NCBI GenBank assembly: GCA_023957375.1
Contig: JAMLHB010000001.1
Span: 496,001 to 560,000, forward strand
Source of the DNA: Flavobacteriales bacterium
GTDB lineage: Bacteria; Bacteroidota; Bacteroidia; Flavobacteriales_F; PHOS-HE28
Reading direction: 5' to 3'
Length of the DNA: 64,000 nucleotides
Under the pieces are notes generated by a model, which saw nothing but the letters and a program-made list of their open reading frames with translations, was not told the origin of the DNA and did no database searches. Made by a program: the position numbers and the translations under genes. Positions 11,309-11,975 of the stretch are shown here, piece after piece; positions within the stretch are counted from its first letter, which is position 1, and every line of letters begins with the position of its first letter.

Positions 11309-11417
11309 ACAGGGCTATCGGGCCTGGAGTCCGCAACTGGCGGCTGAATTTGAAGTTTCGACTGGTTGTGAGTTGAAAGATGTTAGTTGTCAGGGCCGTT
11401 CCAACGAGTTCTGACCC

Positions 11418-11614
11418 GGATTATGAAGTAGCTGACGTTGCGAGAGCCGGAAACGCACAGCCACAGGCATTTTCGTGACGAAAGCGGGGCCACGCTCCCG
11501 GTGAGGAACGAAAATGCGTGAAACGCACTGTGGTAAAGCGTTTCCGGGTCGTAGTAGTCAAGCTACTGCATATTCCGGGTCTGAAGGTACTCCGTAGTTC
11601 AGAGGGGGCAACCC
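11418..11614. ncRNA. Structured element A of a tandem pair (candidate RNA)
   Basis: A 197-bp non-coding unit with nested complementary segments. P1: 11418-11436 with 11557-11576 (GGATTATG / CATATTCC plus AGTAGC / GCTACT). P2: CCGGAAACGC (11447-11456) with GCGTTTCCGG (11538-11547), perfect. P3: CCACAG (11461-11466) with CTGTGG (11528-11533). P4: GCATTTTCGT (11467-11476) with ACGAAAATGC (11508-11517), perfect. A 3' hairpin TCTGAA (11580-11585) / TTCAGA (11598-11603) follows. GTTGC (11437-11441) could also pair with GCAAC (11608-11612), enclosing the 3' side of the structure. A second copy with different stem sequences but the same layout follows 8 bp later. No ORF fits. Orientation is not proven; cyclophilin genes lie downstream on the plus strand. 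Confidence 0.7.
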
Positions 11615-11622
11615 TAATACCT

Positions 11623-11850
11623 GGATTATGCAGCAGGGTTCGTTGCGAGGGTCGAAATCACAAGGACAGCGCGGGTTTCACCGAGAAGGAATAGCACAAG
11701 CTATTGTGCCGAGGGGAAAACCGGCGAAGCGTACGCTGCCGCAGTGATTTCGGGCCGTAGTAGAAATCCTGCTGCATATTCCGGGTAATACGCGGGCGTA
11801 GGTTCAAACTCAGCGAATTGGCCACCGCGCGCCGTATGCGGGGTCAACCC
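11623..11850. ncRNA. Structured element B of a tandem pair (candidate RNA)
   Basis: A 228-bp unit with the layout of element A. Constant blocks: GGATTATG (11623-11630), GTTGCGAG (11642-11649, same 11-nt spacing as in A), CGTAGTAG (11755-11762), CTGCATATTCCGGGT (11772-11786) and CAACCCTAA at the end. Stems are kept while their sequences differ: P1 AGCAGG / CCTGCT instead of AGTAGC / GCTACT; P2 CGAAATCAC (11653-11661) / GTGATTTCG (11744-11752) instead of CGGAAACGC / GCGTTTCCG; P3 CAGCG (11667-11671) / CGCTG (11734-11738). The inner arm is longer and has its own hairpin AATAGC / GCTATT (about 11690-11705). The 3' hairpin is ATACG (11788-11792) / CGTAT (11833-11837). The paired changes argue for selection on structure. 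Confidence 0.7.
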
Positions 11851-11975
11851 TAACAACTGACAACGAACAACTGATCGAAATCGCAGGCTCAACGGGCGGT
11901 TCAGCCCGAGGGTCCTGCTGTTCTAATTCCCTGGCATCTGCCCGCCATTAACTTCGCACCCCGCAAAACACCTAC

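Follow-up and report, generated by a model that had tools for sequence, protein, structure and literature searches.

The insertion site

The window, which is the whole stretch of 64,000 nucleotides of Flavobacteriales DNA that was analysed, contains two related non-coding units lying close together within an older, longer repeat. A sequence-only reading of this region had given the units limits of 197 and 228 bp. The two units are present, but the elements themselves are 167 and 168 bp long, and each is bordered by a short direct repeat. The features of the site, in positions of the window, are as follows:

11310..11917, + strand: older host repeat, ~267 bp once the two insertions are subtracted, ends CAGGGCTATCGGG...CCCGAGGGTCCTG; also present uninterrupted at other loci, inverted ends of 13 bp
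11411..11413: target-site duplication CTG, left of element A (direct repeat CTG on either side)
11414..11580, + strand: element A, a 167-bp MITE copy (subfamily A) that forms a hairpin over its full length, inverted ends ACCCGGATTATGAAGTAGC...GCTACTGCATATTCCGGGT
11581..11583: target-site duplication CTG, right of element A (direct repeat CTG on either side)
11616..11618: target-site duplication AAT, left of element B (direct repeat)
11619..11786, + strand: element B, a 168-bp MITE copy (subfamily B) that forms a hairpin over its full length, inverted ends ACCTGGATTATGCAGCAGG...CCTGCTGCATATTCCGGGT
11787..11789: target-site duplication AAT, right of element B (direct repeat)

The blocks that had been listed as common to both units were found in the sequence, as were the two compensated stems, AGTAGC/GCTACT against AGCAGG/CCTGCT and CGGAAACGC/GCGTTTCCG against CGAAATCAC/GTGATTTCG. 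The CAACCCTAA block, also counted among the shared blocks, is present but lies outside both elements and is part of the different repeat that received both insertions; both of its occurrences are held by the host repeat at 11310..11917. Similarly, the units were described as tandem. They are adjacent here, but only because the same host repeat was hit twice, and elsewhere the copies are mostly single and dispersed. In both units the fold is far better than that of shuffled sequence (z -8.7, computed for the subfamily A copy on a stretch that included flank, and z -6.3). The subfamily A element of the window is also seen at L011, L013, and L018, and the subfamily B element has numerous near-identical copies in the genome.

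Excision in silico of both elements, together with one duplication each, leaves a 326-bp sequence. The first ~267 bp of this sequence are found uninterrupted in another genome (G031) at 95% identity over 265 bp, and uninterrupted copies of the host repeat are also found in G032 (92% and 89%), in G019, and in the genome that contains the window (G000). The two MITEs of the window therefore entered the older repeat by separate insertions. Aligned copies of the host repeat have 13-bp inverted ends (CAGGGCCATCGGG...CCCGATGGCCCTG), and several of them are flanked by target duplications of 9-10 bp. The host repeat is dispersed, with a length of ~267-285 bp, and was seen at 11310-11917 of the window and at L142, L143, L145, L149-L152, and L154.

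The window's own genome contains three ISAs1-type transposase genes (PF13808), and its three ISAs1-type IS copies start with CAGGGCTATCG and have 10-bp duplications. The host repeat resembles ISAs1-family elements in its similar CAGGGC ends and its 9-10-bp duplications and is probably a second MITE, of ISAs1 type. Because of this resemblance to the ISAs1-type IS copies, the site in the window very probably consists of two MITEs nested inside a third, different MITE. The likeness to ISAs1-family elements belongs to the surrounding host repeat and not to the two units reported earlier.

A dispersed palindromic element and its candidate transposase

When the shared block TGCATATTCCGGGT was searched for in the whole genome, tens of sites were found, mostly as inverted pairs with a spacing of 153-154 bp. 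The repeat extracted from these sites is 167 or 168 bp long and has the ends ACCCGGATTATGCAGTAGs and sCTACTGCATATTCCGGGT. The window's own genome contains at least 21 dispersed copies with a constant spacing between the two ends, and additional copies are present in other genomes of the genus. All copies have near-perfect inverted ends and fold into a single long hairpin. The terminal inverted repeats are ~18 bp long with one fixed T/A difference between the two ends. There are two main subfamilies, the arms of which have diverged with pairing retained. The element has no coding capacity, and the only mostly open frame shows no codon-position bias.

Perfect 3-bp target-site duplications flank 19 of the 21 copies in the own genome, which is a complete assembly, and one more copy has a duplication of 4 bp. 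Chance would give such a 3-bp duplication at about 1 in 64 copies, or ~0.3 among 21. The duplicated triplets are varied (CTG, AAT, TCA, GCC, AGG, TGA, GGC, and others), which argues against a fixed insertion motif in place of a copied target. With all examined genomes pooled, 3-bp duplications were found at 38 of 57 distinct copies. The inverted ends, the 3-bp duplications, and the empty site indicate that the units are foldback MITE insertions and not tandem noncoding RNA (ncRNA) genes. Thus, it can be stated with high confidence that the two units are copies of a palindromic, protein-less MITE of 167/168 bp, presumably mobilised in trans and most likely by an IS1380-family enzyme.

The candidate source of this enzyme is an intact 1419-bp IS at G000:C1:733812-735230. 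Its ends, TCCCGGATTATGCAGTAGC...CTACTGCATAATCCGGGT, match the ~18 bp of the MITE, and the own genome has no second IS-sized inverted pair with such ends. A match to the end of a mobile element had been named beforehand as a finding that would speak against an RNA family, and this IS, in the same genome, provides one. The transposase that it encodes is 441 aa long and belongs to the IS1380 family (NF033539, 254 bits with a cut-off of 180 bits; PF13701). At one fixed position the MITE carries GGATTATG in its left end and GGAATATG in its right end, and the IS carries GGATTATG at both ends. The MITE differs from IS1380-family insertion sequences in that it encodes nothing and has an unrelated interior. 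The two are similar only over ~18 bp per end, with no similarity beyond, so simple deletion from the IS does not explain the interior of the MITE.

No target duplication was found at the single IS1380 copy of the own genome. In G032, which carries the MITE, four contig ends contain pieces of a nearly identical IS (97% identity). The left flank of one (L104) ends with GGA and the right flank of another (L102) starts with GGA, and the two flanks fused with one GGA give a continuous DUF4421 protein (E 1e-56). This IS copy appears to interrupt a DUF4421 gene and very probably made a 3-bp duplication, in a single case in which two contig ends were joined and their pairing was deduced from the restored gene. 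G028 contains a related IS end (L127); in G032 as in G028, contig ends truncate the IS pieces. Searches at the strict thresholds used found the IS transposase in no other genome of the genus or class.

The target duplication in the IS1380 family is 4-5 bp, a length that the 3 bp of the MITE do not match. A duplication of 3 bp would be unusual for this family since one of its members, IS1247, makes 5-bp target duplications (PMC3281130). This difference and the single own-genome IS copy without a duplication would favour a true MITE whose mover is a transposase other than the IS1380 enzyme, e.g., one that is now lost. Such a mover is unlikely, as IS ends matching those of the MITE occur in three genomes (G000, G032, and G028) and the IS copy in G032 has an apparent 3-bp duplication. 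The terminal inverted repeats shared by MITE and IS, together with that duplication, are the features that liken the MITE to the IS1380 family, and they suggest that the IS itself may make 3-bp duplications and that the IS1380 enzyme most likely moves the MITE.

In the proposed mechanism, a DDE transposase would bind the ~18-bp terminal inverted repeats and mobilise the MITE, and insertion at a staggered 3-bp cut would give rise to the 3-bp target duplications. The matching ends point to the IS1380-family IS at G000:C1:733812-735230 as the most likely source of the transposase. Both copies in the window landed independently in the older MITE-like repeat, which lies between two genes. Source copies that spread would keep their palindrome through selection on a DNA or single-stranded DNA (ssDNA) hairpin or through hairpin-templated correction, and inserted copies would then decay.

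The MITE or its ends were found in 13 of 45 genomes of the genus, some single matches being chance hits in genes, and by a stricter pattern the MITE was found in none of ~23 genomes from other genera in the class. Carriers include Flavobacteriales/Bacteroidetes MAGs (JAGFIV01 mag.6, JAFEAI01 SZAS LIN-79, JAFDZG01 SZAS-77, and JAHDVX01 BAC5). Searches of plasmid and phage collections gave no relevant match, and a search of the literature found no paper on this MITE.

Bacterial MITEs (such as Correia elements/NEMIS, RUP, and ERIC) are short, protein-less, hairpin-forming, dispersed elements that are served by a transposase in trans. The present element is like them in its long hairpin, inverted ends, target duplication, and dispersed copies. 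It differs in having other ends, a 3-bp duplication, and two main subfamilies with diverged yet paired arms, and it has so far been seen only in one Flavobacteriales genus. It represents a new MITE family, ordinary in kind, with a probable IS1380 partner and at a nested insertion site. What is newly described is an IS1380-linked MITE family with 3-bp target duplications and a MITE-in-MITE site, and the candidate autonomous partner makes mobilisation of the MITE directly testable.

Paired stem changes and competing readings

The paired changes in the stems were examined in 16 aligned copies, on a strand-neutral structure made up of 53 Watson-Crick pairs. In this alignment 91.4% of cells pair, compared with 36-44% when slid. 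Both sides have changed at 15 of the 53 pairs, and the covariation score was reached by none of 500 shuffles. The paired stem changes with pairing kept, as noted in the sequence-only reading, are thus genuine.

Changes were counted by parsimony on a tree of the copies with the same strand-neutral structure; the tree is built on short, possibly recombining copies, and its long internal branches can conceal successive single changes. The paired changes fall mainly on internal branches, where the most frequent event is a double change with Watson-Crick pairing retained (19), followed by changes to G-U (11), to A-C (7), and to other mismatches (7-8). On terminal branches, changes to G-U (38-39), A-C (36), and other mismatches (41-43) are about equally frequent, and paired double changes number only 8. 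The difference between internal and terminal branches indicates that the palindrome was preserved in source copies, with free decay in inserted copies. The maintenance of the palindrome may reflect selection on the DNA hairpin or hairpin-templated repair. A point against the preferred explanation, that of a mobilised MITE, is that pairing across subfamilies has been kept beyond the apparent need of DDE transposition.

Selection on RNA from one strand predicts that changes to G-U should be well above changes to A-C. There is no such excess on terminal branches (39:36), and the two do not differ significantly on internal branches (11:7, p 0.48). A strand bias on internal branches, seen with structures predicted from the + strand, was discarded: those structures favour G-U by construction, and the bias is not significant in the strand-neutral analysis. 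The + strand folds ~11 kcal/mol better on average than the - strand in essentially all copies, but this difference goes back to few founders and carries no independent weight. Recent copies lose pairing without a sign of RNA-strand selection, and the paired changes are a better fit to a palindromic mobile element than to selection on an RNA. It is improbable that selection on source copies of the MITE preserves a strand-specific hairpin, of RNA or ssDNA, with a role in transposition or in the host. If this were true, the MITE would be a mobile carrier of structured RNA and not a passive palindrome.

The strong fold of both units, the pairs changed on both sides, and the better fold of the + strand would be accounted for by a structured ncRNA gene family in which selection acts on the folded + strand transcript and dispersal is only incidental. 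The family with a fixed core and variable arms that had been suggested finds no support in the inverted ends, 3-bp duplications, and intact empty site, which show transposition, nor in the G-U and A-C counts. Additionally, occurrence in the genus is patchy, and Rfam searches at gathering and permissive thresholds (including riboswitches, HEARO, and the group II intron) gave nothing relevant, in agreement with the earlier remark that the units are not a recognisable riboswitch or ribozyme. An RNA gene family is very unlikely on these grounds. The genuine covariation does not by itself show an RNA gene; the striking covariation within one genome can be explained as a property of a palindromic mobile element, which should caution searches in which compensatory changes inside a genome are treated as proving a functional RNA.

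The hairpin form, the GTAG motifs, and nine Y1_Tnp matches in the genome recall REP/BIME-like elements, in which a Y1 (RAYT) transposase acts on single-stranded hairpins and the selected object would be an ssDNA hairpin. Y1 transposases are not known to duplicate their target, whereas duplications flank 19 of the 21 copies, and no Y1 match adjoins any MITE copy, the closest being ~2.5-3 kb away. This reading was rejected on both counts and retains scarcely any probability. The least credible reading is that of a protein-coding palindrome that inserts into genes in frame, as Rickettsia palindromic elements do. An element with its duplication measures 171 bp (168 + 3), which is divisible by three, and in 32 of 56 copies one + frame stays open throughout. 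However, substitutions on terminal branches number 92, 94, and 95 by codon position, without bias, and the subfamily A copy in the window, at 167 bp, has stops in every frame; the codon-position test excluded this candidate. Stop-free frames are long in the GC-rich own genome, which limits a simple survey of genic and intergenic copies.

Variant elements

Several elements depart from the standard length. A 188-bp element in G017 (L132, 713-900) has MITE-type ends, a 3-bp duplication (ATC), and a wholly unrelated interior, and suggests that the ends alone may suffice. Palindromes of 41-69 bp with MITE-type ends occur at L124, L125, L126, L128, and L029, and the one at L128 (45 bp) has a 3-bp duplication, AAC. 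Inserts of ~20 bp are present in some MITE copies (L031 364-551; L113; L062, L064, and L072). One of these inserts is the palindrome CCTGCCTGACGGTAGGCAGG, the first part of which is seen again in L113, and a GC-rich insert of ~20 bp near the right arm is common to three MITE copies.
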